Of a DNA stretch of 64,000 nt, positions 17,218 to 38,350 are shown one piece after another. Location: NCBI RefSeq assembly GCF_028446585.1, contig NZ_JAPFQL010000012.1:1-64000 (forward strand), written 5' to 3'. Position numbers and translations under genes: made by a program. Source of the DNA: Intrasporangium calvum (GTDB taxonomy: Bacteria > Actinomycetota > Actinomycetes > Actinomycetales > Dermatophilaceae). Under the pieces are notes generated by a model. The model searched no databases. It had not been told where the DNA came from and saw only the letters and a list, made by a program, of their open reading frames with translations. Position 1 is the first letter of the stretch. Each line of letters opens with the position of its first letter.

Positions 17218-18138
17218 CTATCCCGATATGAGGGCACCGACCTCGATGCTTCCGTCGTCGTGGACGACGTATTCGGACAAGCCTTGAGGGCGCGCCGGCA
17301 TGGCAGTTCCCAGCGCCACCCTGATCTTCTGGTGATTGCACGCGGACACAACCATGAGGATCTCTACGATCTCTTCACGGGAGTAGTCACCCAGCAGGAC
17401 GTCGCGGAGGTCCGATCCCAATCGGACCGGATCCGACATGTAGATGTCAGCCAGTCTCAACGCCGTCTTGAACTGCCTCGGCATGTCACTCTGTTCGTAA
17501 TTCAGCAGCAAGTGCTCCAGCATCGGATCGACGACCCTCTCGCCACCCGCGATCCGCCTGAGCGACAAGCAGAAGGCGCACTGGTGGTAATCGCCGGCTC
17601 GCAACCGGAGGAGCTCATTTGTCCGGAGGTCGAGTCCGTCACGCAAGGCATAAACGGAGTGATGCCATTCAGCGGCGGCTCGAACGACTCCTGGCTTGGC
17701 CTCGGGTATCTCCACCGCCGCCGTCCCCCCGGAACCTCCAGGTCGCCCGAGGTCCAGCCTCTGGAGCGCGATCCGCAATCGGACGTTCTGGTCGAGGATG
17801 TACATGGCGTGTACGAGGTGTCGAACTGCTCGGTCTCCGAGCCGCTGCTCGACGAAGGCAAGTTGGTGCCGGTCGACGTCCGGCACGTAGTCGACGAACT
17901 GCTCCGTGAGAGAAAGCACCGCGTCCTCAACGTCGTCCGAGGAGGTCGGCCGCGTCAGTCGCTCCTGGCCGAGCACAGCCTCCACCGTCCTGGCCATCTG
18001 GCCGATCAGGTCGGGGTCGAGCTCCTGACTGGCGTTCTGCCACCCTCGGATCAGGGCCGCGCGCCCGCGCGGGGAGAGGGCGCCGATGACGTCGAACTCC
18101 GGCCGGGTGGCGGGCGCCTCGTGGATGTTCGATCCCAT
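17218..18138 (-). CDS. carboxymuconolactone decarboxylase/AhpD-like family protein
   Basis: A 306-residue protein. The central part has RTNELLRLRAGDYHQCAFC followed by LSLRR, which matches the AhpD/CMD helix with a redox-type CxxC motif. The last 100 residues include another family-like helix with His (EEIVEILMVVSACNHQKIRV). AhpD-type proteins act as disulfide reductases or decarboxylases; the two Cys favour a redox or peroxidase-partner role. It is the last gene of the unit carboxylase beta - EthD - EthD - CMD, with starts and stops overlapping, so it is co-expressed with acyl-CoA catabolism. Its exact reaction is unknown. Confidence 0.7.
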   Translation of the reverse strand: MGSNIHEAPATRPEFDVIGALSPRGRAALIRGWQNASQELDPDLIGQMARTVEAVLGQERLTRPTSSDDVEDAVLSLTEQFVDYVPDVDRHQLAFVEQRLGDRAVRHLVHAMYILDQNVRLRIALQRLDLGRPGGSGGTAAVEIPEAKPGVVRAAAEWHHSVYALRDGLDLRTNELLRLRAGDYHQCAFCLSLRRIAGGERVVDPMLEHLLLNYEQSDMPRQFKTALRLADIYMSDPVRLGSDLRDVLLGDYSREEIVEILMVVSACNHQKIRVALGTAMPARPQGLSEYVVHDDGSIEVGALISG

Positions 18139-18791
18139 CAGACGACAACCTCCTCCCTCGCGACGACAACCTGCTTGCGCTGGAGGCCGGTGTAACGCCT
18201 GAAGGCGGCTTCGAGCTGAGGGACCCTTTGGCCTGCCTCGTCAACCGATGCGAACCCGAAGGCGATGGCAACCTGCGGGAGGGCACCGTCGTGACGAAGG
18301 CCAGCGCGCATCAGGACCGCAGCGTCGGGGACCAGGACGTTGACGTCAGACCCGGGCGCCGCGAGGGCTGCCGCGGTCTCCTGAACCCAGGTCCGGAGCG
18401 CGTCTTCGTCGGGTGGTCCGCTCCATCGTCCGAGCAGCCAGACCTTCCCCGGCCACTCCGGGGTCGCCCCTACCGCGTCGACGGCCGCGCCAACCAGGCC
18501 TGAGAGGAACTTCGGTTCGTCCTCGATGAGGAGATCGGCGACGCGGGATCCGAACCCGGCACCCGCTGCGGCGTCGTCCGTGAACCAGAGCTCGACAATT
18601 CCATCCACCGGGTAGGCCAGGTCGTCCACGGGGACCAGGTGCGTGGATATCACGTGGTTCTGCCTGTAGGACACGACTCCCGGAAGCTGACGCGCAATGT
18701 CCGCGTGGACCGTGCGCCAGTGCTGTTGGAAGGCTTGGCGGCTCAGCCCATCCTTCTTCTCCAAGTATGTGATTCTCTTTGGCATGATCAC
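18138..18791 (-). CDS. EthD-domain protein, two-domain form
   Basis: About 217 residues with a dimeric alpha/beta-barrel (EthD) domain in the first half: LSRQAFQQHWRTVHADIARQ, LPGVVSYRQNHV and VDGIVELWF are typical. The second half (from about WPGKVWLLGRW) looks like a diverged second barrel domain. I prefer the GTG at 18789-18791 because it overlaps the upstream stop as GTGA and has AAGGAG five bases before it; an ATG two codons later is also possible. EthD proteins accompany oxidative catabolic clusters, but their chemistry is poorly defined. It is translationally coupled to the shorter EthD gene and the CMD gene. Confidence 0.75.
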   Translation of the reverse strand: MIMPKRITYLEKKDGLSRQAFQQHWRTVHADIARQLPGVVSYRQNHVISTHLVPVDDLAYPVDGIVELWFTDDAAAGAGFGSRVADLLIEDEPKFLSGLVGAAVDAVGATPEWPGKVWLLGRWSGPPDEDALRTWVQETAAALAAPGSDVNVLVPDAAVLMRAGLRHDGALPQVAIAFGFASVDEAGQRVPQLEAAFRRYTGLQRKQVVVAREEVVV

Positions 18792-19111
18792 GTCCGCTCC
18801 TTCAAAGGCACCTCGAACTCTTCGGCCACGAACCATTTCAGGTCACCGATGAAGTGTTCCTCGTGATCAAAGAGCGCCTTGGCCTCGGGGCCCTTGAAGG
18901 CGGCAGCTATGTCTCCGAGGCTGGCGAACCACAACTCCGCCATTCCATCGAAAGGCCAGACCGACTTGTGCTGAATGGCCGGGCTCTGCCGATATCGAAG
19001 GATCCCGGGCATCTGTTCCACGAAGCGTGGATGCTCGCTGCGCCAGCTGCGCAGGAACTCATCGCGCGTCGTGCCTTCCTTGCGGATCACGAGCACGACA
19101 ACCTTGTACAT
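18788..19111 (-). CDS. EthD-domain protein, single-domain form
   Basis: A 107-residue single-domain EthD protein: TTRDEFLRSWRSEHPRFVEQ, MPGILRYRQSPAIQ and FDGMAELWF align with the first half of the next gene, so the pair probably arose by duplication. It is eight bases from the carboxylase beta gene and overlaps the next EthD gene by four. Members of this family form dimers and bind small hydrophobic ligands. The reaction is not known. Confidence 0.8.
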   Translation of the reverse strand: MYKVVVLVIRKEGTTRDEFLRSWRSEHPRFVEQMPGILRYRQSPAIQHKSVWPFDGMAELWFASLGDIAAAFKGPEAKALFDHEEHFIGDLKWFVAEEFEVPLKERT

Positions 19112-19119
19112 CTCGCGCC

Positions 19120-20700
19120 TCAGACTGGGGTGACTGCTTGACGGCGCTCCACCGGGACGACCTTCCGCTTCTTGTAGAGGCGCAGCCGCTTCGTCAGCTC
19201 TTCGCGTAATTGGTCGGAGGGGACGACGGCTTCCACTGCGTTGTTGTCAGCAATCTTGAAGACGTCGATACCCTCGGCATACTCAGCCTGTTTCGCAGCG
19301 ACGAACTCACGACGTTCATCGTCGTCCTGAATCGCATGAATCTGGTTGTAGTACACGCCGTTGACTGCAGCATCCGGGCCCATCAGGGCGGGCCGGGCGG
19401 TGGGCAGGGCGATCACCGCGTCGGGATGCATGGGTGCGCCTGACATGGCCAGATAGCCTCCCCCATATGCCTTACGGACCAGCACGGTGATCCGTGGGAC
19501 GCGGCATTCAGAGACAGCAAAGATCATCTTTGCGCCATGGCGAATGATCCCTTGCCGCTCCACCTCCGAGCCGATCATGTAGCCCGCGATGTCAACGAGG
19601 AAGATGATGGGGACGTTGTAGGCATTGCAGATCCAGATGAATCGCGCGGCCTTGTCCGATGAGTCGGGGAAGATCACCCCACCCATGTGGCGGGGGTCAT
19701 TGGCCACCAGACCGACCGGCTGGCCATTGATTCGGGCGAAGGCCGTGATCATCTCTTGGGCGAAGAGCTCCTTGTAGGGAAAGTAAGTGCCTTCGTCCAC
19801 GAGCGACTCGATGAACTCCTCCATGTCGAAGACCTCGGCCTCCCTCAGCGGAACGATCTCGCTGAGCCGCCGCCCATCTCGGGGCTCGGTCGCCGGAGCA
19901 ACCGGCGCCTGGCTCTCCCAGTTGGGCGGGAGGAAGGAAAGCCAGACCCGGATCGCATTCAGCGCCTCGGTGTCGTCCTCCACCAGAACATCCCCAAGGC
20001 CGGAAACGGTGCAATGCATCTCGGCGCCCCCCATCTCCTCCAGGGTCACCTGCTCGCCAGTCACCATCTCTGCCAAGCGGGGCGAACCGAGGTAGGCGGT
20101 CGCCTGACCTCGCACCATGATCGTTATGTCGCACAGCGCTGGCACGTAAGCCGATCCGGCCGGAGAGGGTCCGAAAAGCGCGCACACCTGTGGAACTCGA
20201 CCCGAGATCTGGACCTGGTTGTAGAAGATGTTGCCCCACGCATGCCGGCCCACGAAGCTGTCGAACTGCTCGTCGATACGAGCGCCGGCCGAATCAAAGA
20301 GGTAAACGATGGGGATACCGGCTGCAACGGCCGTCTCCTGCGCGAAAGTGATCTTCTCGAACGTGCGCTTGCCCCACGTGCCGGCCTTGACGCTGTAGTC
20401 GTTGGCGATCACGCAAACCTGGCGCCCGTCCACATTGCCGTAGGCGCACACCACAGCGTCACCGGGCATACCCTCACTGAACCGCGCGAGCAGTCCGTCT
20501 TCCACGTACTCGCCATCGTCAAAAAAGAACTCAAGGCGCTCACGGACGAGCATCTTGCCCGCGGCCTTGATCTTCTCTCGATTCTTCTCGGACCCGCCCA
20601 AGCGTGCGGACTCTGTCTGGTTCGCCAGGACGTCGTGGACCGTGGGCGCCTCCGCTCGCTCACCTTCAGAGTGCGTCTGGGCGGATGCGGTATGCGTCAT
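19120..20700 (-). CDS. acyl-CoA carboxylase beta (carboxyltransferase) subunit, MCC/GCC-like N-half
   Basis: A 526-residue carboxyltransferase. The N-terminal crotonase half carries signatures I associate with methylcrotonyl/geranyl-CoA carboxylases (FDSAGARIDEQFDSFVGR, GNIFYNQVQISG, PAGSAYVPALCD). The C-terminal half has IIRHGAKMIFAVSE and RKAYGGGYLAMSG, closer to propionyl-CoA carboxylases; LVDIAGYMIG replaces the usual DVPGFLPG loop. It should transfer CO2 from biotin to a branched or unsaturated acyl-CoA. The biotin-carrying alpha subunit is encoded separately at 31-32.7 kb. The gene heads the operon with two EthD proteins and a CMD protein and diverges from the MaoC gene across a perfect 16-bp palindrome. 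Confidence 0.88.
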   Translation of the reverse strand: MTHTASAQTHSEGERAEAPTVHDVLANQTESARLGGSEKNREKIKAAGKMLVRERLEFFFDDGEYVEDGLLARFSEGMPGDAVVCAYGNVDGRQVCVIANDYSVKAGTWGKRTFEKITFAQETAVAAGIPIVYLFDSAGARIDEQFDSFVGRHAWGNIFYNQVQISGRVPQVCALFGPSPAGSAYVPALCDITIMVRGQATAYLGSPRLAEMVTGEQVTLEEMGGAEMHCTVSGLGDVLVEDDTEALNAIRVWLSFLPPNWESQAPVAPATEPRDGRRLSEIVPLREAEVFDMEEFIESLVDEGTYFPYKELFAQEMITAFARINGQPVGLVANDPRHMGGVIFPDSSDKAARFIWICNAYNVPIIFLVDIAGYMIGSEVERQGIIRHGAKMIFAVSECRVPRITVLVRKAYGGGYLAMSGAPMHPDAVIALPTARPALMGPDAAVNGVYYNQIHAIQDDDERREFVAAKQAEYAEGIDVFKIADNNAVEAVVPSDQLREELTKRLRLYKKRKVVPVERRQAVTPV

Positions 20701-20819: not shown

Positions 20820-21311
20820 ATGTCGCACGAACAGCCAGCCAGATCGGCCAACCCGTCGGCAAGGTCCCTTCCGGAGCCCCACTACTGGGAATCTCTGGCG
20901 CTTGGCGATTGCTTGGTCACCACCGGTCTGACCATCACCGAGGCTCACCTGCTCACGTGGGCCGGCCTCACCGGCGACGTCGTTTCCTTCCACCTGGATG
21001 CCGAGTACGCTGCGTCGACACAGTTCGGACACCGGGTCGCTCACGGCCCCCTCACCCTGTCAACCTCACTGGGACTCGTCACCCAGACCGGCTACTTCGG
21101 CAATGTGGTCGCCTGGCTTGGACTCGACTCGGTCCGCGCCAAGAAGCCCGTCTTCATCGGAGACACCATCCGCGTCCGGGCGACGATCCGGGAAGCTCGC
21201 GAGACAAGCAACCCGGCTCACGGAGTGTGGGTGATCGACTATGTGACCAGCAACCAGCATGGCGACGTGGTCATGACGTTCACGTCCAGCTTTCTGGTTC
21301 GGCGGGCCTGA
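20820..21311 (+). CDS. MaoC-like (R)-specific enoyl-CoA hydratase
   Basis: A 163-residue single hot-dog domain protein. The catalytic region LTGDVVSFHLDAEYA and FGHRVAHGPLTLS keeps the Asp and His spacing of the MaoC hydratase-2 motif, although the usual Asn-Pro of the motif is replaced. It would hydrate a 2-enoyl-CoA (or dehydrate the hydroxyacyl-CoA) in the degradation pathway. It is divergent from the carboxylase beta operon and convergent with the metallo-hydrolase gene. The ATG at 20820 follows GAGAGGAAG. Confidence 0.82.
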   Translation: MSHEQPARSANPSARSLPEPHYWESLALGDCLVTTGLTITEAHLLTWAGLTGDVVSFHLDAEYAASTQFGHRVAHGPLTLSTSLGLVTQTGYFGNVVAWLGLDSVRAKKPVFIGDTIRVRATIREARETSNPAHGVWVIDYVTSNQHGDVVMTFTSSFLVRRA

Positions 21312-21344: not shown

Positions 21345-22370
21345 TCATCTCGTTCCGGTCAGGCCTTCGTCACCACTGGCAGACCGCACATGCGCCACAA
21401 ACGCCGCCGCCTCTCCGACTGCCATACGGCGCGACAATGCATTGAACTCCGTCCAGGGTCGCGACCAGGACAGCCGCTGGGCGAGCTCCCAGATGGTTGC
21501 ACCGCCGTCGGCGTGAAGCAGTCGTCTGACCTCGGACAAACGCGCGGCCACCTCCTGCTCCAACTCCTCGACCCGCCGATGAACACCAGCAAATCGATAC
21601 TGATGAGCCGGCAGCACCTCGGCATCCTCTAGGTGCCGCAACATCACCAGGCTCTCTAGGTACTGCATCAGCGGATCCGAGTACCCGAAGGGGTTGAGGG
21701 CGACGTGGGAGCTGATCGTCGGCAGGAGATGGTCTCCGCTGAAGAGAAGGTTACGGCGGCGGTCATGCAAGCAGACATGGCCAGGTGTATGCCCGGGGGT
21801 GTGCAGCACCTGGATGTCTTCACCCGCCAAGGGAAGCGTTTGCCCATGCAACAGGTGATGATCCGGCTGGAAATAGCGACGGGCGTGGCCGTAGTCCTCC
21901 GTCTGAGCCAGCACGCGGGCCTCGGCTGCCGGGACGCCCCACGCCGTGAATCGCGCGGTGGCTGAGTGCTCCCCCACCTGATGATCAGTGAGACCCTGCA
22001 CCCAATCAGTCTCTGCCGCTCCCAAGGCCACCCAAGCTCCGGTCTTTGCCGCTAGCTGGCCTGCCCCTTCCCAATGGTCGAAGTGGAAGTGCGTCACCAC
22101 GATCCCCCGGAGGCGATGGGGAGCGATCCCGATTGCGGCAAAGGCCGCGTCCCAGGCTGCGGCCGCTTCCGGGGAGTCGGGGCCTGGATCAATGACAACC
22201 GCGTCGTGCGGACCCGCCACCAAGTAGGCGAAGGTGTAGCGGATCGGGTTGTCGACAGGGACCGGGATGGCCCAGACGTCGGGGGCCACCCTCTCGAGAT
22301 CTGGCAGCTGCCGCTCGGCCCACGCCCTCACTTGATCCGGACTTGTCGGAATCACGTCAGGGCGAACCAT
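21345..22370 (-). CDS. metallo-beta-lactamase-fold hydrolase
   Basis: A 341-residue protein with the full MBL zinc motif THFHFDHWEG near residue 95, HTPGHTPGHVCLHD and FSGDHLLP as the third and fourth metal blocks, and a distal His at LPAHQYRFAG. A C-terminal winged-helix-like tail (DGGATIWELAQRLSWSRPW) is typical of the LACTB2-like branch. In an acyl-CoA pathway it may be a thioesterase or lactonase; no substrate can be assigned. The ATG follows the LivF stop by two bases, so it belongs to the importer operon. Confidence 0.85.
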   Translation of the reverse strand: MVRPDVIPTSPDQVRAWAERQLPDLERVAPDVWAIPVPVDNPIRYTFAYLVAGPHDAVVIDPGPDSPEAAAAWDAAFAAIGIAPHRLRGIVVTHFHFDHWEGAGQLAAKTGAWVALGAAETDWVQGLTDHQVGEHSATARFTAWGVPAAEARVLAQTEDYGHARRYFQPDHHLLHGQTLPLAGEDIQVLHTPGHTPGHVCLHDRRRNLLFSGDHLLPTISSHVALNPFGYSDPLMQYLESLVMLRHLEDAEVLPAHQYRFAGVHRRVEELEQEVAARLSEVRRLLHADGGATIWELAQRLSWSRPWTEFNALSRRMAVGEAAAFVAHVRSASGDEGLTGTR

Positions 22371-22372
22371 CC

Positions 22373-23155
22373 CTACTTCTCAGCCTGACCGTGATCGATG
22401 GCCTCAGCGATGCCCTTGGAGACGGGCTCCGCCGAGGGAGCGCCTCCCAAGTAGATGTGCTGGATCATCGGGTTGTTACGCAGTTCCTCGGCCGTCCCCT
22501 CCAGCATGACTTGTCCCCCGCTGAGCAGGTACCCCCGGTCGGCGAGGCTCAGGGCAGCCAGCGCATTCTGTTCGACGACGACCACAGTGAGGTTCCGCTC
22601 AGCTCGCAGCTGGGCGAGCACACTCATGACCTGTGCGGTCATCTGCGGGGAAAGGCCGAGACTCGGTTCATCCAAGAGCATGACCCTGGGCTGGCTCATG
22701 TAAGCACGACCCACTGCCAGCATCTGCTGCTCCCCACCCGAGAGGGTTCCTGCGAGCTGGTGCGAGCGCTCCGCAAGCCTGGGGAAATACGCGTAGACCT
22801 CGTCCATGAGCTGCTTGGTCCTGGAGTCCTTGCGGCGGGTGTATCCGCCAAGCACCAAGTTGTCCGACACGGAGAGCGTGGTAAACACCTGACGGCCCTC
22901 CGGCACCAGAACACAACCTTCTCGAACCACTTGGCTCTGTCGCATCCCAGCGGTGTTTTTTCCCCCAAGCGCCACGTCTCCGTGTCGCAGCCGATGACTG
23001 CGGGCTATCACGTTCAGCAGGGTGCTCTTGCCCGCACCGTTGGGCCCGATCACGGTGACGATCTCACCCTCGGCCACGGAGAGCGAGACGTCACGCAGCA
23101 CCTTGGCCCTTCCGTACGAGAAGCTGACCCCTTTCACCGAGAGCGCGGCGGTCAT
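22373..23155 (-). CDS. LivF-type ABC ATPase
   Basis: A 260-residue ATPase with Walker A GPNGAGKS, Q-loop VPEGRQVF, signature LSGGEQQMLAVGRAYM and Walker B VMLLDEPSLGLSP, matching LivF of branched-chain amino-acid-type importers. LivF pairs with LivG, which is here part of a fusion protein encoded just upstream with a four-base overlap. The set LivH - LivM-LivG - LivF - MBL hydrolase is one leftward operon. These importers in catabolic clusters often carry carboxylic acids rather than amino acids. Confidence 0.93.
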   Translation of the reverse strand: MTAALSVKGVSFSYGRAKVLRDVSLSVAEGEIVTVIGPNGAGKSTLLNVIARSHRLRHGDVALGGKNTAGMRQSQVVREGCVLVPEGRQVFTTLSVSDNLVLGGYTRRKDSRTKQLMDEVYAYFPRLAERSHQLAGTLSGGEQQMLAVGRAYMSQPRVMLLDEPSLGLSPQMTAQVMSVLAQLRAERNLTVVVVEQNALAALSLADRGYLLSGGQVMLEGTAEELRNNPMIQHIYLGGAPSAEPVSKGIAEAIDHGQAEK

Positions 23156-25089
23156 CGCTTCACCCCTTCATCAGTCATGTGGTCCTCATGCCCGGCGTGC
23201 CCCGACTGCGGGTCGTGCGCCACGCCGAGGTAGGCGTCGATGACGTCCTGGTCAGTCTGGACCTCTTCCGGGGTACCAACCCGAAGAGTTGAACCGAAGT
23301 TGAGCACGTGAACACGATCAGCCGCCGCCATGACGAACTCCATGTCGTGTTCGATGACCAGGACGGCCATGCCCTCGCGACCCAGGGACCGCAGCAACCT
23401 CATGAGCGAGGCCTTCTCTGCCTTGTTGAGCCCTGCGCACGGTTCATCCAGGAGCAGGACGCGGGGAGAGGCGACAAGGGCTCGTGCGATCTCGACCTGT
23501 TTCTGCTGGCCGAGCGAGAGGCTCTTGGCGTCACGGTCTGCCAGGCGTGAGAGCCCGAGCCGATTCAAGGCTGTGGCCGCTTCCGTCGCGAGGGTCTCCT
23601 CCTCCTTGAGCGATCCGAAGGTGGGTACGGACGAACGGAGCATCCCGACGGACCCTCGTAGGTGTGCCCCAACGGCCACGGTTCCCGCAACATCCATTCC
23701 CTCGAAGAGGCAGGGGGTCTGGAAGGTGCGGCTCAGCTTGTGGGCCGCAACTTGGTGCGCCTTCATCGCGGTCGTGTCGACGCCGTCGATGTGCACGGAG
23801 CCGGCATTCGGGACCAGATTGCCCGAAAGCAGGTTGACCAAAGTGGACTTGCCCGCGCCGTTCGGGCCGATCACGGCGAGAACCTCCCCGGCTCGGATGT
23901 TCAAGCTGACTCCGTCGACAGCCGTTACGCCTCCAAAATGCTTGGCCAGCCCCTCGGCCGAGAGAACCACCTCGCCAAGCCGAGGGATCCCGACAAGGTC
24001 TTGAGCGCGCCGCTGGGAGGCCATGTCTGAAGGTGCGTCATCGCCGGGCGGGGCGTTCGATTCAGCATCGGCCTCGAGCCCCGGCTCGCGCGTGTACCGG
24101 CGACCCAAGCGGGCCGCGGCGCTGATGGCTCCGATGATGCCATCCGGCCGAAGCACCAGGATGACCACCAGGAGGAGACCCATCACAAGCTCTTGGCCAG
24201 CACCGACGGCCGCGTTTCCGAGGATGCTCGGCAGCGTGGCGTCAATGAGCTGGTGCAGCAGCTCGAGCACGATCGCACCGACGATGGCGCCCCAGGGACT
24301 TCGCATGCCACCTAGCACCGCGATCATCAGGACCTCGATCGCGGTGATGAGGCCGAAAGGCGGCGGGTTCACATACAGGACTTGGTGCGCGTAGAGCGAG
24401 CCGGCGATTGAGCTGATCACTGCAGAGGCGGTGAAGACTCGGGCCTTCGACGACGCGATGTTGATACCCGCCGCGGCCGCCGCGGCCTCATGCCCCCGAA
24501 TGGCGAGCAGGGCGCGGCCCTCTCGACCCCTTCGGAGCATCAACATGCCCCAGAGCACAATCCCAACGACAACCCAGTTGAGAATCATGTGCGATTGGCT
24601 CGAGAGGAACGTGAAGCCGAACAGTTCCAGGGGTCGGATGCCGCCGAGCCCGGTGGACCCCCCAGTGAACTCAGCGTTGTTCACGAGGAGGTAGAAGACC
24701 TCGGTGAGGGCCAAGGTAGCCATAGCGAGGAAGTGGCCGCGCAGCCGGAAGAGCGGGCGCGCGAGTGCGAAGCCGAGGATCCCCGCGACTATGGCCGAGA
24801 CCGCCATGGCTGCTAGCCCAGCCCAGCCGTAGTTGACCGTCAGCAGGGTCGATCCGTACGCGCCAATTCCGTAAACCGCACCCACCGCGAGGGAGAACTG
24901 GCCGGCATAGCCAGTGACGAGAACCATGCCTAGACCCAGAAGCGCAAGGAGCCCCACCGATGCGCCGAGACCGGCGTAGTACTCGTTGGTCGAGAAGGCA
25001 AAAGCGGCGACGACGGCGATCCAGACGAGCGCGCCGACCAGATGGCGCCATCCGATGGCCGAGCTGGACTGCCTGGGCGTATCAGACAC
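23152..25089 (-). CDS. LivM-LivG fusion: permease and ATPase in one polypeptide
   Basis: A 645-residue protein. Residues about 10-320 are a LivM-type permease with eight to ten membrane segments (VTGYAGQFSLAVGAVYGIGAYG is the conserved region). After a polar linker of about 60 residues comes a LivG ATPase with Walker A GPNGAGKS, signature LSLGQQKQVEIARAL, Walker B VLLLDEPCAGL and the LivG-specific VLVIEHDMEFV. I chose the GTG at 25087-25089, which overlaps the LivH stop by eight bases. Fusion of these two components would fix their stoichiometry. It works with LivH, LivF and the LivK-like lipoprotein at 26.1 kb. Confidence 0.92.
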   Translation of the reverse strand: MSDTPRQSSSAIGWRHLVGALVWIAVVAAFAFSTNEYYAGLGASVGLLALLGLGMVLVTGYAGQFSLAVGAVYGIGAYGSTLLTVNYGWAGLAAMAVSAIVAGILGFALARPLFRLRGHFLAMATLALTEVFYLLVNNAEFTGGSTGLGGIRPLELFGFTFLSSQSHMILNWVVVGIVLWGMLMLRRGREGRALLAIRGHEAAAAAAGINIASSKARVFTASAVISSIAGSLYAHQVLYVNPPPFGLITAIEVLMIAVLGGMRSPWGAIVGAIVLELLHQLIDATLPSILGNAAVGAGQELVMGLLLVVILVLRPDGIIGAISAAARLGRRYTREPGLEADAESNAPPGDDAPSDMASQRRAQDLVGIPRLGEVVLSAEGLAKHFGGVTAVDGVSLNIRAGEVLAVIGPNGAGKSTLVNLLSGNLVPNAGSVHIDGVDTTAMKAHQVAAHKLSRTFQTPCLFEGMDVAGTVAVGAHLRGSVGMLRSSVPTFGSLKEEETLATEAATALNRLGLSRLADRDAKSLSLGQQKQVEIARALVASPRVLLLDEPCAGLNKAEKASLMRLLRSLGREGMAVLVIEHDMEFVMAAADRVHVLNFGSTLRVGTPEEVQTDQDVIDAYLGVAHDPQSGHAGHEDHMTDEGVKR

Positions 25090-25939
25090 GGTCAGCCACC
25101 ACCTGTCGGGTGAGCCCCTGCGGGCGAAGGATGAGCAGAACAATCAGCAGGACGAACACAACGGTGGAAGCCTGAGCGGCTGAGACGTAGCGCGCCACGA
25201 CGACTTCTGCGAGGGCCACGAGGAATCCGCCGATAAGGGTGAGCCCGAGTTTGTCGAATCCGCCCATGATTGCCGCTATGAAACCTTTGAGACCCAACGC
25301 GAGCCCGGCCCCGGCCGCGATGAACGACGTGGGGACCTGTGCGGCGAGCACGCCACCGGCGATGGCGCCAGAGAGAGCGAACGCGATGGTGGCCATCGTG
25401 GTGAGGCTGATCCCGACGATTCCCGCGGCGTAAGCGTTGACGGAGAAGGCGCTCAAGGCCTTGCCTGAGAGCGTGCGGTCGAAGAAGTAGGCCAGCCCAA
25501 GGTAGCCGAGCAGGGTGATGCCGATCAGCCAGAGGGACTGCTGGGGGATGCGGCCCCCCAGGATGTCCACCGAGGGGCCCGAGGTGATCGCTGGGAACTG
25601 TCGGGGGCCGCTGCCGAAGTAGAGCTGGATGAGTGAGCGAATGGCGATGCCCACACCCAGGGTCACGATGGTCTGCACCATGAGGCTCTGGTTTCGGAGC
25701 GGATGGATCGCCAGGTGGTACATGACCACGCTGACCACCGCTCCGACGACTGCACCAACGAGAATCGCCCCGAGGGGCGGTAGGACCGCCGAAGCGACCA
25801 CGGCTCCGAAGCCCCCAGCCACTGCGATGTCGCCCATCGCGAAGTTCACCATGCCGGTGAGCCGGTGGACGATCACGAACCCGATCCCGATCGCGCCGTA
25901 GAGCGCCCCCAAGGCCAGCGCCGTGAGTAGCAGCTGCAT
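25082..25939 (-). CDS. LivH-type ABC permease
   Basis: A 285-residue membrane protein with about eight hydrophobic segments. GIGFVIVHRLTGMVNFAMGD matches the LivH segment that follows the first helix, and ALKGF-like GLALGLKGFIAAIMGGFDKL is the conserved coupling region. The ATG at 25937-25939 was chosen because the family begins with a short hydrophobic helix; upstream frame has no homologous sequence. It is the first gene of the importer operon and diverges from the binding-protein gene, with an operator-like motif in between. Confidence 0.92.
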   Translation of the reverse strand: MQLLLTALALGALYGAIGIGFVIVHRLTGMVNFAMGDIAVAGGFGAVVASAVLPPLGAILVGAVVGAVVSVVMYHLAIHPLRNQSLMVQTIVTLGVGIAIRSLIQLYFGSGPRQFPAITSGPSVDILGGRIPQQSLWLIGITLLGYLGLAYFFDRTLSGKALSAFSVNAYAAGIVGISLTTMATIAFALSGAIAGGVLAAQVPTSFIAAGAGLALGLKGFIAAIMGGFDKLGLTLIGGFLVALAEVVVARYVSAAQASTVVFVLLIVLLILRPQGLTRQVVADRV

Positions 25940-26005
25940 TACCACTTCCAACTGGAGCTCCTCGATCCGGACGGGCCTCTTCCGAGACGCCGAAGTTCCT
26001 TGACA

Positions 26006-26021
26006 TACGAGCGCACGTTCG
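26006..26021. promoter_or_regulatory. operator-like motif TACGAGCGCACGTTCG between livH and livK
   Basis: It aligns with TACGAACGGTCGTACG (complement of the site at 34.33 kb) at 12 of 16 positions and with the site at 42.83 kb. It lies in the divergent region of the importer genes. Confidence 0.55.
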
Positions 26022-26132
26022 CTTGAATCAAGATAGATGGCGGTCCTGCTCGCGTCAATGCCCAAGGGGCTCCGTGCAACGGGGAGGCCATTCTGGATTT
26101 CAATGACGAGCTCCAACCAGAGAGGCACCCCA

Positions 26133-27383
26133 GTGAAGAACCAAGTGCGAAGGTCCGTGGTCCCGCGCCGGGCCATCATCACAGCAGCAGCAGCGGCTGC
26201 GCTGACATTCGGCGTCGCTGGCTGCGGCGCCGATTCAGAGGGCCCGGGCACAGGGGCCACCGGGGGCGGCAACTCTGAGCCCTACCGCGTCGGCGTCCTC
26301 GTCGGCCTCACCGGCAGTTACGCCGCACTCGGCGAGCCGGAGCGTCAGGCCGTAGAGCTGTACTTCAAGGAAGTCAACGCAAAGGGCGGGCTCAACGGCC
26401 GTCCCATCGAGCTCGTCGTTGTCGACAGCGGCAGCAACGAGGGCACGGCCGTCAACCAGTACCGCAAGCTGGCGATCGAGGAGAACGTCCACGCCATCAT
26501 CGGGCCCAGCTCCAGCGGGGAGTCCATTGCGCTGCGGACCTTCAGCAATCAGCTCAAGGTGCCGACCATCGCCTTGGCTTCGTCCTCGAGCATCGTGACC
26601 CCGGCTGAAGAGGCCGGTTACATCTTCAAGCAGTACACGGGTACCAATGAGTCGCTGAAGGCGCAGATCCAGTTCGCCAAGGAGCAGGGTTGGACCAAGG
26701 TCGGCCTCCTTCACACGAACGATGGGTACGGTCAGGACCCCGCCAAGCGGATCGACGCCGTCGCTTCGGAGTTCGGCATCCAGGTCACCGGCAAGGAGGC
26801 GTTCGACGCTACGACGACCGACGTCACCGCTCAGCTGGGCAAGCTGGCTGGCGGCTCGCCCGACGTGGTACTCGTCTGGGCGGTGAACCCGGCCAACGCC
26901 GTTGTGGCCAAGAGCGCCGAGTCAATCGGCTTCAAGCCGGTCCTGTTCAACTCCCCAGGAGCCGGGTCACCCGCATACATCGAGAACAGCGGGGCCGCGG
27001 CCGACGGCACATACCTCCAGGGCTCGGTCGTTCTCGCGCCCACGTCACTGAAGCAGGACAACCCCCAGTATGAGGCCACCAACCGGATCGTCGAGGCCTT
27101 CAAGGCGGCCAATGCTGGCGCGCCCGGCCAGTTCGCTGCGAACGGTTGGGACGGCTCAATCCTCCTGGAGAACGCGATCACCAAGGCCTCGTCGCACGAC
27201 CCTCAAGACGTGCAGGCGACCCGGGACGCCCTCCGCGCATCGCTGGAGGCAAACACCAAGGACGTCGTCGGCGTCAACTCGATCTACACCTTCACGCCGG
27301 AATTCCACGGTTCGCTCTCACTCGGTGGGTTGGCTGTGCTGAAGGTGGAGAGCGGCGCGTTCAAGGTCGAGCAGAGCTACTGA
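26133..27383 (+). CDS. LivK-type substrate-binding lipoprotein
   Basis: A 416-residue exported protein. The signal sequence has Arg residues, an Ala-rich hydrophobic core and the lipobox VAGC near residue 31. The mature part is a type I periplasmic binding fold: VGVLVGLTGSYAALGEPERQ at the start, AIIGPSSSGESIALR and WTKVGLLHTNDGYGQDPA further on. I chose the GTG at 26133 because GAGAGG lies seven bases upstream and the signal peptide then has normal length; an ATG at 26103 is an alternative. It should bind the growth substrate, probably an organic acid. A strong hairpin follows the stop. Confidence 0.9.
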   Translation: MKNQVRRSVVPRRAIITAAAAAALTFGVAGCGADSEGPGTGATGGGNSEPYRVGVLVGLTGSYAALGEPERQAVELYFKEVNAKGGLNGRPIELVVVDSGSNEGTAVNQYRKLAIEENVHAIIGPSSSGESIALRTFSNQLKVPTIALASSSSIVTPAEEAGYIFKQYTGTNESLKAQIQFAKEQGWTKVGLLHTNDGYGQDPAKRIDAVASEFGIQVTGKEAFDATTTDVTAQLGKLAGGSPDVVLVWAVNPANAVVAKSAESIGFKPVLFNSPGAGSPAYIENSGAAADGTYLQGSVVLAPTSLKQDNPQYEATNRIVEAFKAANAGAPGQFAANGWDGSILLENAITKASSHDPQDVQATRDALRASLEANTKDVVGVNSIYTFTPEFHGSLSLGGLAVLKVESGAFKVEQSY

Positions 27384-27997: not shown

Positions 27998-28920
27998 GCC
28001 GACGATGACGCAGGTACTCCGGTCCCAGGAGTCACTCGTGGGCGCGACACACCAAGCGCCACGCCACCTAGAACGACCAACGCCCCCAGCAGTTGGTTCA
28101 GAGTGAGCGGTTCGCCCAGCACCGAGATGCCGAGCCCCACCCCCACCAGTGTCGTCACGTAGGTGACCATTGATGCCGGTGCCGCGCCCCAGGAGTCGAT
28201 GACCCTGAAGTTCCACACGTAGGCGAACCCGGTGCCCAGGACGCTGAGGAGGAGGATCGACAGGGTGATGGGCAGGTCGAGCGTCACCGGTGTGAGCGCA
28301 GTGAACGGAGCGATGAGAATCATGAGTGCCGCCGCTACGAGCATCTGGCCGAAGGCAATGCCGACGGGGTCCAACCGCAAGGGACTGAGCGACTTCTTCG
28401 TATAGGCGAAGGCGAACCCCAAGCCGATCACGGCACCTACACACGCCACCTGCCCGGCCAGGTCAAAGGACTCGGCACCCAGACGCCAGGGCGCCAAGAC
28501 GATGAGGATACCCAGCGCCCCAAGCACTACACCCGCCACACTCCGTCCGCGGATCGTCTCCTGGCGCATCGCAACTACCGTGAGAACGGTGGTCGAGACC
28601 GGAACGGAGGCGTTGTAGATGCTCGACAGACCACTAGGGATGCGCTGGCCGGCCCATGCGTACAGCAAGAACGGCACGGCGCAGCCGACGACCCCCAGCA
28701 CGAGAATCCGTCGCCAAGCCAAGGCGCCGGAAGGCCATCGGCGCTTGGTCAGCACCATCACCACTGCGAGCACCAACGTGGCAAGAGTCGTTCGAGCCAG
28801 CACGAGCTGCACCGGCGAGACGCCTTGCACCGCAACCTTGATGAAGAGGAAGCTGGCACCCCAAGAAAGCCCCACGCCGAGGAAGAGCAGGGCCACCAAA
28901 GAGGTCGGCGACCGCTTCAC
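27958..28920 (-). CDS. EamA/DMT-family transporter
   Basis: A 320-residue membrane protein with ten predicted hydrophobic segments in two homologous EamA halves: WGASFLFIKVAVQGVSPVQL and ARTTLATLVL at the start, PASMVTYVTTLVGVGLGISV and LGEPLTLNQLLGALVVLGGV in the second half. The GTG start overlaps the SDR stop as GTGA. It ends the operon ligase - carboxylase alpha - dehydrogenase - SDR - transporter. It may export an overflow intermediate. The low-complexity Ser-rich tail lies in the region overlapping the convergent gene. Confidence 0.88.
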   Translation of the reverse strand: MKRSPTSLVALLFLGVGLSWGASFLFIKVAVQGVSPVQLVLARTTLATLVLAVVMVLTKRRWPSGALAWRRILVLGVVGCAVPFLLYAWAGQRIPSGLSSIYNASVPVSTTVLTVVAMRQETIRGRSVAGVVLGALGILIVLAPWRLGAESFDLAGQVACVGAVIGLGFAFAYTKKSLSPLRLDPVGIAFGQMLVAAALMILIAPFTALTPVTLDLPITLSILLLSVLGTGFAYVWNFRVIDSWGAAPASMVTYVTTLVGVGLGISVLGEPLTLNQLLGALVVLGGVALGVSRPRVTPGTGVPASSSAQASSQPGSGSSI

Positions 28921-29678
28921 GGGCGGTCAAACAGCTGGAAGTAGCTCGTCGCCCCTCCGTCGATGACCAGGTTCGCACCGTTGATGTTGCAGGCTTCGTC
29001 GCTGATCAGGAATGCGGCCAGGGCGCCGATCTCGGCTGGATCGATGATCTCCTCGGTCGGCACCTTGCGCGGAATCTGCTCTCGGACCGCGTCAATGACC
29101 ATCGGAGTGTCAACGACGCCGGGGCAGATCGAGTTCACTGTCACGCCCGTACCCCATAGGTCGATGACGAGCGACCTTGTCAGGTTGGACAGCCCGGCCT
29201 TTGAGGCGGCGTAGCTGGGGTAGGCGTACCCCGTCACGCCGGCGATGGATGAGATGTTGATGATGCGTCCCCAGCCGCGGGAGATCATCCCTGGCGAGAA
29301 GGCCTGGATCATGCGAAACGGTCCGACGAGGTTCACAGCGATAGTGCGCTCAAATGACGAGTCGTCGTGATCGACGAGAAACTTCCGGTCCAAGATCCCA
29401 GCCGCGTTCACGAGGACATCGACATCGACCGCTGCTCGGGCGACCTCTTCACGGAGCGCCCTGACACTCGAGCTATCCCCAACATCGACGGTGAACGCGT
29501 CCGCACGGCCCCCTGCATCCCTGACGGCTTGTGCCGCCCGTTCCGATCCCTCACCCGAGACGTCCGCGCACAACACTCGGTGGCCCGCAGCGGCGAGCCG
29601 AGCGTTGATACCGGCCGCCATCCCACCTCCTGCCCCAGTGACGAGAACCGTCCGCGGGCTGCTGGAAGACATCGTCAT
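28917..29678 (-). CDS. short-chain dehydrogenase/reductase (SDR)
   Basis: A 253-residue classical SDR. The cofactor motif is VTGAGGGMAAGI (a TGxxxGxG variant), followed by NAAG, and the catalytic residues are Ser in NISSIAG and Tyr/Lys in YAASK. An Asp at the end of strand 2 (LCADVSGEG) favours NAD. It would oxidise a hydroxyacyl-CoA or an alcohol in the pathway; in the Pseudomonas Atu cluster SDRs (AtuB, AtuG) occupy a similar place. Of two ATGs six bases apart, the first has an AGAGGA site at normal distance. It is fourth in its operon. Confidence 0.9.
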   Translation of the reverse strand: MTMSSSSPRTVLVTGAGGGMAAGINARLAAAGHRVLCADVSGEGSERAAQAVRDAGGRADAFTVDVGDSSSVRALREEVARAAVDVDVLVNAAGILDRKFLVDHDDSSFERTIAVNLVGPFRMIQAFSPGMISRGWGRIINISSIAGVTGYAYPSYAASKAGLSNLTRSLVIDLWGTGVTVNSICPGVVDTPMVIDAVREQIPRKVPTEEIIDPAEIGALAAFLISDEACNINGANLVIDGGATSYFQLFDRP

Positions 29679-29737
29679 TGTGGTTCCTCTCACGGTTGTC
29701 TCAAGGGCGGAATCGACGTTTCACACGGATGCGTGGC

Positions 29738-30958
29738 TCAGTAAGAACGGGGCAGCTTGAAGTGGTGCTCGGCGATGAAGTTGTGGATCATCTCGTCCGT
29801 GAGCGGCGCGAAGGTGTAGAGGCGCGCATCCCGGAAGAACCGTTGCATTGAGTACTCTCGGCTGAGGCCAGACCCACCCATGGCGCGCATGCCGTGATCC
29901 GTGATCATTGTCGCGGCCTCGGAGGCCGCCAGCTTGGCCATGGCCGAGAGCGTTTCTGCCGCGCCGCCGTGGTCGGCCGCACGGGCGGCACGCTGGAGAA
30001 GTGAGCGGGCCCCTTCGAGCCTCACTACGCCGTCGACGAGTCGGTGCTGCAGGATCTGGAAGGAGCCGATCGTCCTGCCGAATGCCTCGCGGCTACGGAC
30101 GTACTCGAGCGCCGCATCCTGGGCACCACGAGCGATACCGAGAGCCACCGCAGCGGCGTTGAGCCGCTCCCCGTTCAGCGTGGCCAGGACCTGCCGGAAC
30201 CCCCAGTTCACCTCTCCCAACACAGCGTCGTGCGGCACGCGAACGTCGGAGAGGCCGACCTCGCACGTGGAGAGGCTGTGAATCGCCATCGTGTCCATTT
30301 CGTTCACGGTGACGCCACTGGCGCTTCTTGGAACGATGAACATCGTGATGCCCGAGATTGCAGACCGCTCGATCGGTGCCGTTCGGGCAAGTACCAGTAG
30401 GAAAGTTGCATCACTCGCGCCGGAGATCCACATCTTGCTGCCACTGAGCTTCCAGGTGCCATCAGATTCCTGTGTTGCCCGGGTCCGCATCACGCGCGCG
30501 ACATCAGTCCCCCCACCGGGTTCGGTCAAAGCGAAAGCCACCCGTGATCGGCCGGAGAGCAGCGGGACCAGGTACTGCTTGCGCTGCTCTGCTGTGCCGT
30601 GTTGGGCCAGAAGTGTGACACCCATGTACTGAACCACCAGGGACACCGCCATGGACGTCGCTGTGGCGCCCAGCTCTTCCAACACAATGGTCTGGCTCAT
30701 ATGGCTTGGGGGGTTGCCCTCCGTATCGGCCTCAAGCTGAATCAAGCCGGCATCGGCAAGAGTTCGATACAGGTCCTCATCGAACTTCTCGTTTTCATCG
30801 AACTCCCGGATCCGATCGGGAGTTGCCTTGTCCCTGAGAACGTCCCGAATCAACGCGCGAAGGTCGGCTTCATCCTGCGTCTCGTCGATCTTGAGGTGGA
30901 CGAAGGGGGCGGCCCCCTGAGGTCTCGGCAGCAGTGGTTCGTCCGGGCTGTGAGTCAT
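29738..30958 (-). CDS. acyl-CoA dehydrogenase
   Basis: A 406-residue FAD enzyme. The family signatures FALTEPGGGTDVARVMRTRA and KMWISGASDATFLLVLART are in the middle domain, and MRAMGGSGLSREYSMQRFFR with DARLYTFAPLTDEM in the C-terminal domain. The region RSREAFGRTIGSFQILQHRL is also typical. It introduces the alpha,beta double bond in the CoA-activated substrate; AtuD holds this role in the citronellol pathway. Its ATG lies one base after the carboxylase alpha stop. An N-terminal extension of about 30 residues precedes the usual start of the fold. Confidence 0.93.
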   Translation of the reverse strand: MTHSPDEPLLPRPQGAAPFVHLKIDETQDEADLRALIRDVLRDKATPDRIREFDENEKFDEDLYRTLADAGLIQLEADTEGNPPSHMSQTIVLEELGATATSMAVSLVVQYMGVTLLAQHGTAEQRKQYLVPLLSGRSRVAFALTEPGGGTDVARVMRTRATQESDGTWKLSGSKMWISGASDATFLLVLARTAPIERSAISGITMFIVPRSASGVTVNEMDTMAIHSLSTCEVGLSDVRVPHDAVLGEVNWGFRQVLATLNGERLNAAAVALGIARGAQDAALEYVRSREAFGRTIGSFQILQHRLVDGVVRLEGARSLLQRAARAADHGGAAETLSAMAKLAASEAATMITDHGMRAMGGSGLSREYSMQRFFRDARLYTFAPLTDEMIHNFIAEHHFKLPRSY

Positions 30959-30959
30959 G

Positions 30960-32729
30960 TCAGACCCCATCAGCCACGTAGGAGGCAAGCAGAGTGCCCG
31001 CTGGGGTCGAATCGCCCAGCGACACATGGACTGCCTCGATACGGCCGTCGTGCGTGGCCTTGATCGGATTCTCCATCTTCATCGCTTCGAGCACGAAGAG
31101 CAGCGCACCGGCCGTCACATCGTCACCTGCCTCCACGTTCACCTTGACGATCGTCCCCTGCATGGGTGCCTTGACCGTGCCATCGCTCGCGCGGCTACGA
31201 CGCCGGCGGGTCCCCGAGCGTCCACCGGCCCGGGCCGACCCTGCTTCCGCATCAGCGGTGGGTGCGGCCGCTCCGGCCGGGGCAGCCATCACGCCATCTT
31301 CGGGAAAGGTCGGAATTCGGTAATAGCGACCTGCGACCTCGACGTCGAAACGCGCGTCTTCGTCGCCCTGATCCTCGGAGAAGTCAGGTAGGACAACGGA
31401 ATCCTCGAGCCAGGTGGTGCCAATGTCCACTGACTTGAAGGCGTCCAGCGCCAAGATGTGCTGGGCGGCGGGGATGGTCGTTCGAATCCCCTCGATCTGC
31501 ACTTGGGCCATCGCTGATTGCAGCCGTTGGATCGCCGCATCCCTGGTAGGGCCCCAGGCGATGAGCTTGCCGACGAGACTGTCGTACAGAGGAAGGACCT
31601 CGTCCCCGGATTGGTACCCCGCGTCCCACCGGAGGCCCTCGGCTTCGGGTACCTCGAGTGTGGCAATCAGCCCTGGCGATGGGACGAACATTCCCTCCGA
31701 CGGGTCCTCTGCGTTGACACGGACCTCTATCGCTGCGCCTTCTGGTCGGACAGACTCCTGCGTGATCCCGAGCGGTTGCCCCGCGGCGACCCGCAATTGC
31801 AGCGCAACCAAGTCCAGTCCGGTTACTGCCTCGGTGACAGGATGTTCGACCTGAATTCGCGTGTTCATCTCGAGGAAGTAGAACTTGCCCTCTTCATACA
31901 GGAACTCAACCGTCCCCGCTCCCACGTAGTGGACCTGGCGTGCCAGGCGAACGGCAGCCTCGCCCATGCTGCGCCTGACCTCATCGCTGAGCCCTGGCGC
32001 CGGCGCTTCCTCGATGAGTTTCTGATGGCGCCGTTGCACGGAGCAGTCACGGTCACCGAGGTAGACGACGTCGCCGTGGGAGTCCCCAAAGACCTGGACC
32101 TCCACATGGCGTGCGTTGACGAGGTAGCGCTCGCAGTAGACCTCGCCATTGCCGAACGCAGCCGTCGCCTCTCGAACAGCCGCACCGAATGCCTCGACCG
32201 CCTCTGACGCGGAGCCCACCAAACGCATACCGCGGCCGCCTCCCCCGTAGGAAGCCTTCACGAGTGCCGGGTACCCATGTTCGTCCCCGAACTCGATGAT
32301 GGCCGACGGATCGGCAATGGAGCCCTCTGATCCGGGGGCCAAGGGAACGGAGGCCGCGAGCGCGACGGCGCGAGATGCAACCTTCTCCCCCATGGTGGCG
32401 ATGGCGTGCGCCGACGGCCCGATGAAGACCAGACCCGCGTCCGTCACGGCGCCGGCGAACTCGGCGCTCTCCGCCAGGAAACCGTACCCGGGATGCACCG
32501 CTTGGCACCCCGTGCGCTTGGCGGCGCGAATGATTGCCGCGGTGTTGAGGTACGTCGAACTGGCTGGCCCATCGCCAAGATCGACGCTCTCATCGGCCGT
32601 GCGCACATGCAATGAGTGGGCGTCTGCGGCCGAGTGGACGGCCACGGTCTTGATGCCGAGCTCTCTACAGGTCCTCATGATCCGCACCGCGATCTCACCG
32701 CGATTGGCGATCAGGATCTTCTCAAACAT
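30960..32729 (-). CDS. acyl-CoA carboxylase alpha subunit (biotin carboxylase + BCCP)
   Basis: A 589-residue protein. The biotin carboxylase part starts at the first residues (KILIANRGEIAVRIMR), has the ATP-grasp loop SYGGGGRGMRLV, and QVEHPVTEAVTGLDL in the active site. A basic, Ala-rich linker (GTRRRRSRASDG) leads to a C-terminal biotinyl domain with EAMKMEN, whose Lys carries biotin. It carboxylates biotin and feeds the beta subunit at 19-20.7 kb. The ATG at 32727-32729 was chosen from two because the AGAGGA site has proper spacing. It sits between the ligase and dehydrogenase genes; a biotin transporter gene is in the same cluster. Confidence 0.93.
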   Translation of the reverse strand: MFEKILIANRGEIAVRIMRTCRELGIKTVAVHSAADAHSLHVRTADESVDLGDGPASSTYLNTAAIIRAAKRTGCQAVHPGYGFLAESAEFAGAVTDAGLVFIGPSAHAIATMGEKVASRAVALAASVPLAPGSEGSIADPSAIIEFGDEHGYPALVKASYGGGGRGMRLVGSASEAVEAFGAAVREATAAFGNGEVYCERYLVNARHVEVQVFGDSHGDVVYLGDRDCSVQRRHQKLIEEAPAPGLSDEVRRSMGEAAVRLARQVHYVGAGTVEFLYEEGKFYFLEMNTRIQVEHPVTEAVTGLDLVALQLRVAAGQPLGITQESVRPEGAAIEVRVNAEDPSEGMFVPSPGLIATLEVPEAEGLRWDAGYQSGDEVLPLYDSLVGKLIAWGPTRDAAIQRLQSAMAQVQIEGIRTTIPAAQHILALDAFKSVDIGTTWLEDSVVLPDFSEDQGDEDARFDVEVAGRYYRIPTFPEDGVMAAPAGAAAPTADAEAGSARAGGRSGTRRRRSRASDGTVKAPMQGTIVKVNVEAGDDVTAGALLFVLEAMKMENPIKATHDGRIEAVHVSLGDSTPAGTLLASYVADGV

Positions 32730-38340: not shown

Positions 38341-38350
38341 CGTGTGGCTC

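Follow-up and report, generated by a model that had tools for sequence, protein, structure and literature searches.

A rare clade of acyl-CoA carboxylase beta subunits with a putatively altered acyl pocket beside the YngE types

Results

The carboxylase subunits of the locus

The stretch of DNA analyzed here, comprising the first 64,000 nucleotides of contig NZ_JAPFQL010000012.1 of Intrasporangium calvum (hereafter, the window), carries genes for both subunits of a putative biotin-dependent acyl-CoA carboxylase, of which the carboxyltransferase, or beta, subunit is the principal subject.

19120..20700, minus strand: acyl-CoA carboxylase beta subunit (carboxyltransferase), YngE-type lineage, W155/L417 clade, as judged from its open reading frame (ORF), Pfam match, trees and residues
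30960..32738, minus strand: alpha subunit, 592 aa, biotin carboxylase (BC) plus biotin carboxyl carrier protein (BCCP) by domain matches; near beta in 6 of 7 relatives

A preliminary description of this DNA had recognized a carboxylase beta subunit at 19120-20700 without naming a strand, and this assignment is confirmed. The ORF is intact, begins with ATG and encodes 526 aa on the minus strand, and residues 46-518 of its product match the Pfam Carboxyl_trans family (PF01039) with 467 bits against a curated cut-off of 22.3. The top NCBIfam match, to methylmalonyl-CoA decarboxylase alpha, reached 415 bits and stayed below its cut-off of 998.8; as the protein falls below every NCBIfam cut-off, it belongs to no family named there. 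The motifs GNIFYNQ, AGSAYVPA and DIAGYMIG are all present.

The alpha and beta genes, previously described as 10 kb apart, do lie ~10.3 kb from each other. Among the genomes seen, this gap is peculiar to that of the window: in 6 of the 7 relatives with at least 60% identity to beta, alpha is located 10 bp to 4.4 kb from beta, and the 20 kb examined of the seventh (G518), which lie at a contig end, yielded no alpha. The two subunits are presumably partners. Within the window alpha, 76 aa separate the BC_C and BCCP domains, and five other fused alphas (L066, L074, L072, L079 and L162) have 69-82 aa there, versus 152 and 160 aa in two alphas of the methylcrotonyl-CoA carboxylase (MCC) type. The alphas of MCC, geranyl-CoA carboxylase (GCC) and propionyl-CoA carboxylase (PCC) carry a BT domain between BC and BCCP (PMC4673880). 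A gap of 76 aa leaves the window alpha without room for a full BT domain, and so, judged by gap length alone, the BT domain of MCC and GCC holoenzymes is predicted to be missing. The BC ORF of G552 (442 aa) has no fused BCCP at all.

Two substitutions shared by the clade

Trp occupies position 155 of the beta subunit in all nine members of its clade and in no other of the 178 aligned rows. Elsewhere, the position holds Ala in 99/99 YngE types, Phe in 12/12 MCC, Gly in 2/2 GCC and Tyr in 7/7 PCC-group rows. The YngE set (98 proteins, later 99) combines class and relatives surveys with the best 80 loci listed from one scan and is not a random sample. The column was fixed by the human numbering of Phe191 in MCC beta (8j4z), which has Phe there, with the Gly of GCC in the same column. 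In mutants, the residue at this position decides between MCC and GCC activity (PMC4673880). The second substitution is Leu417, likewise present in 9/9 clade members, at a position that is Tyr in 99/99 YngE types and in 10 of 12 MCC. It corresponds to D422 of PccB, a position associated with specificity in PCC. In addition, the residue preceding ALMG is Pro in 9/9 clade members and Ile or Val in 99/99 YngE types.

The altered substrate loop that the preliminary description saw in DIAGYMIG proved to be only partly distinctive. The change consists mainly of Pro to Ala at residue 372, which among the nine clade members is Ala in six, Ser in two and Pro in one, whereas the G[YF]M portion is common to YngE types, MCC and GCC. 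Nor are the N-terminal motifs typical of GCC, as had been supposed, since both 5ikl and an Acinetobacter atuC-like protein differ there, carrying Gly and a 3-residue deletion. The MCC-like segment length of beta is instead common to the YngE-type group.

Measured against the residues of each class, beta has the 3-residue insertion of classical MCC, with the Phe at the Phe191 position replaced by Trp155; it has Trp and the insertion where GCC betas have Gly and no insertion; and it has Trp and Leu in place of the Ala155 and Tyr417 of the YngE core. By these residues, the clade appears to be a sister of the YngE types and not a core member. With one pocket position larger and the other smaller, the substitutions suggest a reshaped acyl site, and the replacement of the YngE Ala/Tyr pair means that the pocket is probably adapted to a substrate other than 3-methylcrotonyl-CoA.

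Phylogenetic placement

The preliminary description regarded the protein as mixed, with an MCC/GCC-like N-half and a PCC-like C-half. The N-half of beta is 39.0% identical to Mycobacterium tuberculosis AccD1, 34.6-34.9% to two MCCs, 30.3% to the GCC 5ikl and 34.2-37.2% to three PCC rows; for the C-half, the corresponding values are 30.3%, 27.0%, 27.2% and 35.5-38.7%. The N-half leans only slightly towards MCC and the C-half more strongly towards PCC, so the mixed similarity holds to this degree, but the two origins that it might imply do not, as both half trees recover the same clade.

The window protein, L079, the protein of Rhodococcus ruber and L066 form one clade in whole-length, N-half and C-half trees alike (FastTree with 170 rows; IQ-TREE with a smaller set), and are joined by L075 from a Pacificitalea plasmid. 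For the four-member clade, the Shimodaira-Hasegawa-like approximate likelihood ratio test (SH-aLRT) in IQ-TREE gave 99.3/93.9/99.7 (whole/N/C), and FastTree supported it at just 0.555 in its first tree of the C-half. All nine clade members are monophyletic in FastTree with 178 rows, with support of 0.999/0.993/0.970 in the same order; only this tree contains all nine, whereas the IQ-TREE trees and the approximately unbiased (AU) tests include five proteins of the clade (window, L079, L074, L066 and L075).

The outcome that the preliminary description had set against its own proposal, clustering with PCC, was not found in the carboxyltransferase phylogeny that it suggested as a check: constraining the clade with ten PCC-type rows, four of them solved structures, was rejected in all three alignments (AU p = 2.0e-9 whole, 8.8e-4 N-half, 9.6e-41 C-half). 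A constraint with MCC was likewise rejected for the whole protein (4.0e-4) and the C-half (0.019), with p = 0.099 for the N-half. A constraint with the YngE types (plus L037 and a subgroup of 46-49% identity) was not rejected (0.51/0.43/0.47 whole/N/C). With the YngE constraint retained, the PCC constraint rejected throughout and the MCC constraint rejected for the whole protein and the C-half, the W155/L417 clade is best placed as sister to, or inside, the YngE-type group. For context, Lombard and Moreira argued for an origin of PCC, MCC and GCC inside one promiscuous acyl-CoA carboxylase family (PMC3199775). Given the absence of PCC clustering and the distinctive substitutions of this small clade, of which one falls at the position shown by mutants to separate MCC from GCC, the earlier suggestion that the protein forms its own specificity class seems reasonable.

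The YngE types and other carboxyltransferases of the genome

Relatives with 49-54% identity to beta are common among the returned Bacillales and Actinomycetes loci. In a Bacillus amyloliquefaciens record, such a beta gene comes last in an operon-like run of genes for acyl-CoA dehydrogenase, ligase, BC, BCCP, 3-hydroxy-3-methylglutaryl (HMG)-CoA lyase and enoyl-CoA hydratase (ECH), which is a leucine-type gene set and which, by gene order, we take to be the yng genes. The genes beside yngHB of B. subtilis are annotated as PCC and may encode an MCC for leucine, according to PMC4016012.

The I. calvum genome (4.12 Mb, 163 contigs) has four more carboxyltransferase-family places. On contig C132 is a 52% identical paralogue of YngE type that adjoins an acyl-CoA dehydrogenase; C97 encodes a PCC type (38% to beta, 76% to the Streptomyces coelicolor PccB row); C12 encodes a protein of 26% identity; and the match on C131 lies within a giant protein. 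Terracoccus sp. 273MFTsu3.1 (L138) has counterparts of the C97 and C132 proteins with 90% and 88% identity, which makes the host a probable relative of Terracoccus. Since the genome has its own YngE-type paralogue, the window copy need not be the leucine enzyme.

A second subgroup (L065, L068, L069, L070 and L071; 46-49% identity) has acyl-CoA dehydrogenase, beta, MaoC and alpha in one locus in 5/5 cases, with a weak ligase match (23-29%) in 4/5, apart from beta in L065.

Distribution and recurring gene partners

The W155/L417 clade has seven further members with at least 60% identity to the window protein and one at 55%. At or above 60%, it was represented by one of the best 80 loci listed in a scan of genome contigs (L079, 84%), by one of 752 plasmid records with a match (a megaplasmid of R. 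ruber MSA14, 75.8%) and, besides the genome of the window, by 1/246 genomes of the class (G069), 2/297 of the order (G518 and G353) and 2/396 of the phylum (G552 and G776), the sample sets overlapping. The clade is rare and scattered. We found no paper on it or on its gene cluster in a literature search that left most subscription journals outside.

In most of these relatives, beta is accompanied by some of the same genes. The other genes of the window that belong to this comparison are as follows, with amino acid identities to homologs elsewhere.

18138..18836, minus strand: second EthD-domain protein; 48% homolog after beta in L079
18788..19111, minus strand: small EthD-family protein, immediately downstream of beta; its counterpart adjoins beta in L079 and G518 and lies upstream of alpha in R. 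ruber
20820..21311, plus strand: MaoC-type hydratase (PF01575), divergent from beta; the same divergent pair, 62-63%, in L079, G518 and G353
21345..27383, strand not assigned: metallo-beta-lactamase (MBL)-fold hydrolase and branched-chain-type ABC importer, by matches, between beta and the other genes
28917..29693, minus strand: short-chain dehydrogenase/reductase (SDR) oxidoreductase; 66% L079, 64% G353, 42% R. ruber
29738..31027, minus strand: acyl-CoA dehydrogenase, its ORF start overlapping alpha; 65% L079, 59% G353, 61% R. ruber, 49% G518
32772..34313, minus strand: AMP-forming acyl-CoA ligase; 70% L079, 59% G353, 49% R. ruber
34391..35023, minus strand: TetR regulator; 63% L079, 51% G353, 50% R. 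ruber
35129..36298, minus strand: old yellow enzyme (OYE)-family FMN oxidoreductase; 64% L079, 54% G353, 57% R. ruber
38032..38346, minus strand: AtuA ferredoxin-like partner (PF23544), within ORF 38032-38460; 70-72% in G552 and G776
38351..39709, minus strand: AtuA-family protein (PF07287, 437 bits); 75% G552 (part of gene), 69% G776
39752..40975, minus strand: thiolase; 65% in G552
40994..42211, minus strand: CoA-transferase family III; 68% in G552
42208..42789, minus strand: BioY biotin transporter (PF02632, 128 bits); 40-45% homologs near beta in L079, G518 and G776
42866..43681, plus strand: enoyl-CoA hydratase family protein; 47-50% in G552 and G776
43694..45265, plus strand: large subunit of a B12-dependent acyl-CoA mutase; 64% homolog in G552

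Locus L079 has BioY, MaoC, beta, two EthD proteins, OYE, TetR, ligase and alpha in one 13-kb run, together with a CitE-type lyase, a second MaoC, acyl-CoA dehydrogenase, SDR and an EamA transporter. Genome G353 has alpha, ligase, TetR, SDR, beta, MaoC, dehydrogenase and OYE within ~12 kb, with a lyase and second MaoC after alpha. The R. ruber megaplasmid carries OYE, dehydrogenase, EthD, alpha, SDR, beta, TetR and ligase, and G518 has dehydrogenase, EthD, beta, MaoC and BioY near its contig end. Beta and alpha are adjacent in G552 and G776, where the run also contains AtuA, AtuA-ferredoxin and ECH genes; that of G552 further includes a CoA-transferase, a thiolase and the mutase, the last directly upstream of beta. 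In G069, alpha adjoins beta and no other window gene was matched in the surrounding 14.8 kb. The genes of the G552 and G776 runs are those at 38-45 kb of the window, and each of the two blocks of the window is thus found with the carboxylase elsewhere. The 10-kb gap of the window is occupied mostly by the importer set and the MBL-fold gene, and no such genes were seen separating the module genes in L079 and G353.

Several smaller features of these regions may be recorded here. The two EthD-domain ORFs overlap (18138-19111), and the small one has a weak methylmuconolactone-isomerase match. The LivM permease and LivG ATPase of the branched-chain-type importer are fused in one 663-aa ORF (23152-25143). 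Genes for fumarylacetoacetate (FAA)-hydrolase-family proteins (41-47% to the G353 copy) occur near the cluster in L079 (1174-2016), L172 (13600-14607), L174 (6721-7548) and L074 (1-610); the window gene of this family, at 7.1-7.7 kb, is only 31% identical.

A low-GC block

Between 17.2 and 45.3 kb (17218-45265), the GC content is 64.1%, versus 68.6% and 69.7% in the flanks. GC at third codon positions (GC3) across all 57 called ORFs is 0.78 in the block (26 ORFs) versus 0.85 outside (31 ORFs; p = 5e-4). A hand-picked set of 45 of the 57 ORFs gave 0.76 (23) versus 0.89 (22), with p = 1.3e-8, but this set omits twelve ORFs, including several in the flanks whose GC3 is low, and contains one of doubtful frame. 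The case for an island therefore rests on the weaker, 57-ORF figure and on plain GC. The lower GC together with the R. ruber plasmid copy suggests lateral transfer, and it is possible that the block was acquired horizontally. No tRNA was found in the window, and an empty island site was not shown in G001, of the same genus, where one flank protein had no match and the other had only matches of at most 35% identity or short ones. Lower meta-cleavage-like genes (DmpG-type aldolase, acetaldehyde dehydrogenase and FAA-hydrolase-family protein) at 11354-14219 lie outside the low-GC block and adjoin an IclR regulator.

Discussion

The present analysis describes a clade of carboxyltransferases that, as far as its sequences indicate, is real, rare, possibly mobile and altered in its acyl pocket, while its fold and chemistry class appear ordinary. 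On balance, and with modest confidence, we favor the view that alpha and beta form a YngE-type biotin-dependent carboxylase with its own specificity, acting in a leucine/Atu-like pathway that would handle a branched acid. Both leucine and acyclic-terpene breakdown follow a succession of ligase, dehydrogenase, carboxylase, hydratase and lyase, then CoA-transferase and thiolase. In the proposed route, the ligase would activate the free branched acid, the acyl-CoA dehydrogenase would form a 2-enoyl-CoA, and this would be carboxylated by alpha (biotin carboxylase) and beta (carboxyltransferase), with the gamma carbon, as in MCC, the most likely site. Water could then be added to the carboxylated enoyl-CoA by a MaoC or ECH hydratase, a C-C lyase would cleave the product (CitE-type in two relatives, with AtuA as the candidate in the window), and the CoA-transferase and thiolase would recover the beta-keto acid. 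The gene, its family and lineage, the substitutions, the recurring partners and the lower-GC block are observed directly; the partnership of alpha with beta, gamma-carboxylation, this order of steps, a changed specificity and the horizontal acquisition of the genes are what we infer.

The kinship to the YngE types extends beyond 49-54% identity to equal segment lengths and to the motifs VRKAYG...AM and IIRHGAK; the alpha of the genome's own YngE-type paralogue also has no room for a BT domain, and Bacillus BC and BCCP are separate genes. Beta differs from the YngE types in the exchanges of Ala for Trp155, Tyr for Leu417, Ile/Val for Pro before ALMG and, mostly, DVPGFM for DIAGYM, and no HMG-CoA-lyase-like CitE gene was found in the window. 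In L079 and G353, a CitE-type lyase and a MaoC follow alpha. This pair is reminiscent of M. tuberculosis Rv2498c, a protein once annotated as CitE that accepts (R)-HMG-CoA and acts in leucine catabolism (PMC6689899). As for AtuA, proteins like it are labelled lyase in a table of a naphthalene-degradation review (PMC12016498).

Several observations weigh against this proposal. Neither the window nor the examined stretches of R. ruber, G518, G069 and G085 yielded a CitE-type lyase, and the best CitE-type homologs elsewhere in the I. calvum genome are only 33-35% identical. Only the window, G552, G776 and G085 have AtuA close to beta; it is elsewhere in the genome in G353 and G069, and was not found in G518, the R. 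ruber plasmid record or the L079 genome (1.8 Mb). An obligate link to AtuA is rejected, AtuA having gone unfound in 3 of the 7 genomes or records searched. Leu417 also occurs in eight rows outside the clade, including L037 (on the sister branch, with Ala155), L078, an MCC-lineage row, transcarboxylase 12S and 3ib9, the last being an engineered D422L variant within the PCC group. Among the tree tests, grouping of the N-half with MCC survived, as did all three branching orders of YngE type, MCC and PCC (AU p 0.074-0.114 whole, 0.08-0.198 N-half, 0.117-0.328 C-half). The predicted fold of beta (pLDDT, a model confidence score, 84.1) is closest over the whole chain to PCC-type chains; the 50 entries listed in the fold search are PCC, acyl-CoA carboxylase, acetyl-CoA carboxylase or transcarboxylase chains, with no MCC or GCC chain among them, and the MCC control for domain connectivity failed, its model from three sequences being poor (pLDDT 48.8). 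Finally, the mutase gene that immediately precedes beta in G552 would fit carboxylation at the alpha carbon as well.

An alpha-carboxylating enzyme with an alkylmalonyl-CoA product is the most durable of the other explanations, albeit a rather unlikely one. Apart from the mutase genes of the window block and G552, it draws on the mutase itself, whose nearest PDB match is 2-hydroxyisobutyryl-CoA mutase (445 bits) but which has Tyr and Arg where the alignment of that enzyme has Ile and Gln. In methylmalonyl-CoA mutases, these two residues are, we assume, involved in holding the carboxylate, and their presence keeps this explanation alive. It also draws on the PCC-like C-half, on the PCC-type top fold matches, and on the Leu that transcarboxylase 12S has at the D422 position. 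In further likeness to PCC and transcarboxylase 12S, beta shares 35-37% identity with three PCC rows and the RKAYGG-Y and IIRHGAK motifs; it differs by a 3-residue insertion before position 155 and by AG-AYVP in place of GG--YSP. Against this stand the AU rejections of grouping with PCC, the separate PCC type on C97, and the dehydrogenase, hydratases and, in two relatives, CitE-type lyase, which fit a gamma route.

It is improbable that beta is simply a redundant MCC of the leucine pathway. Its sister lineage does occur in a leucine-type operon, and the ligase, dehydrogenase, hydratase, thiolase and CoA-transferase would all suit such a role. The MCC betas (3u9r, human 8j4z and M. tuberculosis AccD1 4q0g) are comparable to beta in a segment length near 155, in IFYNQ, AG-AYVPA and the GFM/GYM-G loop, and in the proposed chemistry, and are distinguished from it by identities of only 31-35%, by Phe at 155 and, in most cases, by Tyr at 417. 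However, the nine clade members have changed two positions that are invariant in 99 YngE types, the genome retains its YngE-type paralogue beside an acyl-CoA dehydrogenase, and the block includes OYE, EthD, AtuA and mutase genes, which are not known as parts of leucine breakdown.

A geranyl/citronellyl-type carboxylase of an acyclic terpene pathway is very improbable. The AtuA-family protein and its ferredoxin-like partner are in the block and form one run with beta in G552 and G776, and the set of ligase, SDR, dehydrogenase, carboxylase and TetR recalls the Acinetobacter atu cluster. The GCC kinship supposed in the preliminary description is nevertheless not borne out: beta is 28.8% identical to the solved GCC beta AtuC (5ikl), has Trp in place of its Gly, and does not have its 3-residue deletion, and the partner alpha is small. 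A true GCC is rejected on these features of residue, indel and identity; AtuA, moreover, went unfound in the three genomes or records mentioned above. A Phe at the Gly position renders GCC inactive on geranyl-CoA, and many GCC and MCC enzymes in databases are misannotated (PMC4673880). Two records filed as Acinetobacter phage MD-2021a (L189, CAKLQH020000054.1; L190, CAKLQH020000001.1) carry atu-like and liu-like clusters, that of L190 in a 328-kb contig; both look like mislabelled Acinetobacter contigs.

Lastly, the idea that an MCC-type N-domain became fused to a PCC-type C-domain is hardly credible despite the leanings of the two halves and the unrejected N-half grouping with MCC (p 0.099), as both half trees agree on the same clade beside the YngE types and the AU test rejects the C-half with PCC at 9.6e-41, and the MCC/PCC chimera was accordingly discarded.

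The clade therefore combines MCC-like and PCC-like motifs without being a chimera. Its two fixed changes, one at the position controlling MCC versus GCC activity and one at a position associated with PCC specificity, together with the recurring gene partners, make its specificity testable. More tentatively, it is possible that a separate gamma-carboxylating lineage, with alphas devoid of BT, serves leucine breakdown in Gram positive bacteria, and that a scattered, mainly actinobacterial branch of it, in which Ala/Tyr became Trp/Leu, serves a mobile pathway for branched acids, which might be terpenoid or alicyclic. If gamma-carboxylation is correct, the model of two lineages (an alpha-carboxylating PCC type and a gamma-carboxylating MCC/GCC type), as outlined in PMC4673880, would need a third branch. 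More distant carboxyltransferases of ~41-42% identity are found on two Natrinema plasmids (L077 and L162), one with AtuA nearby and the other accompanied by UbiD-family decarboxylases and a CoA ester lyase.

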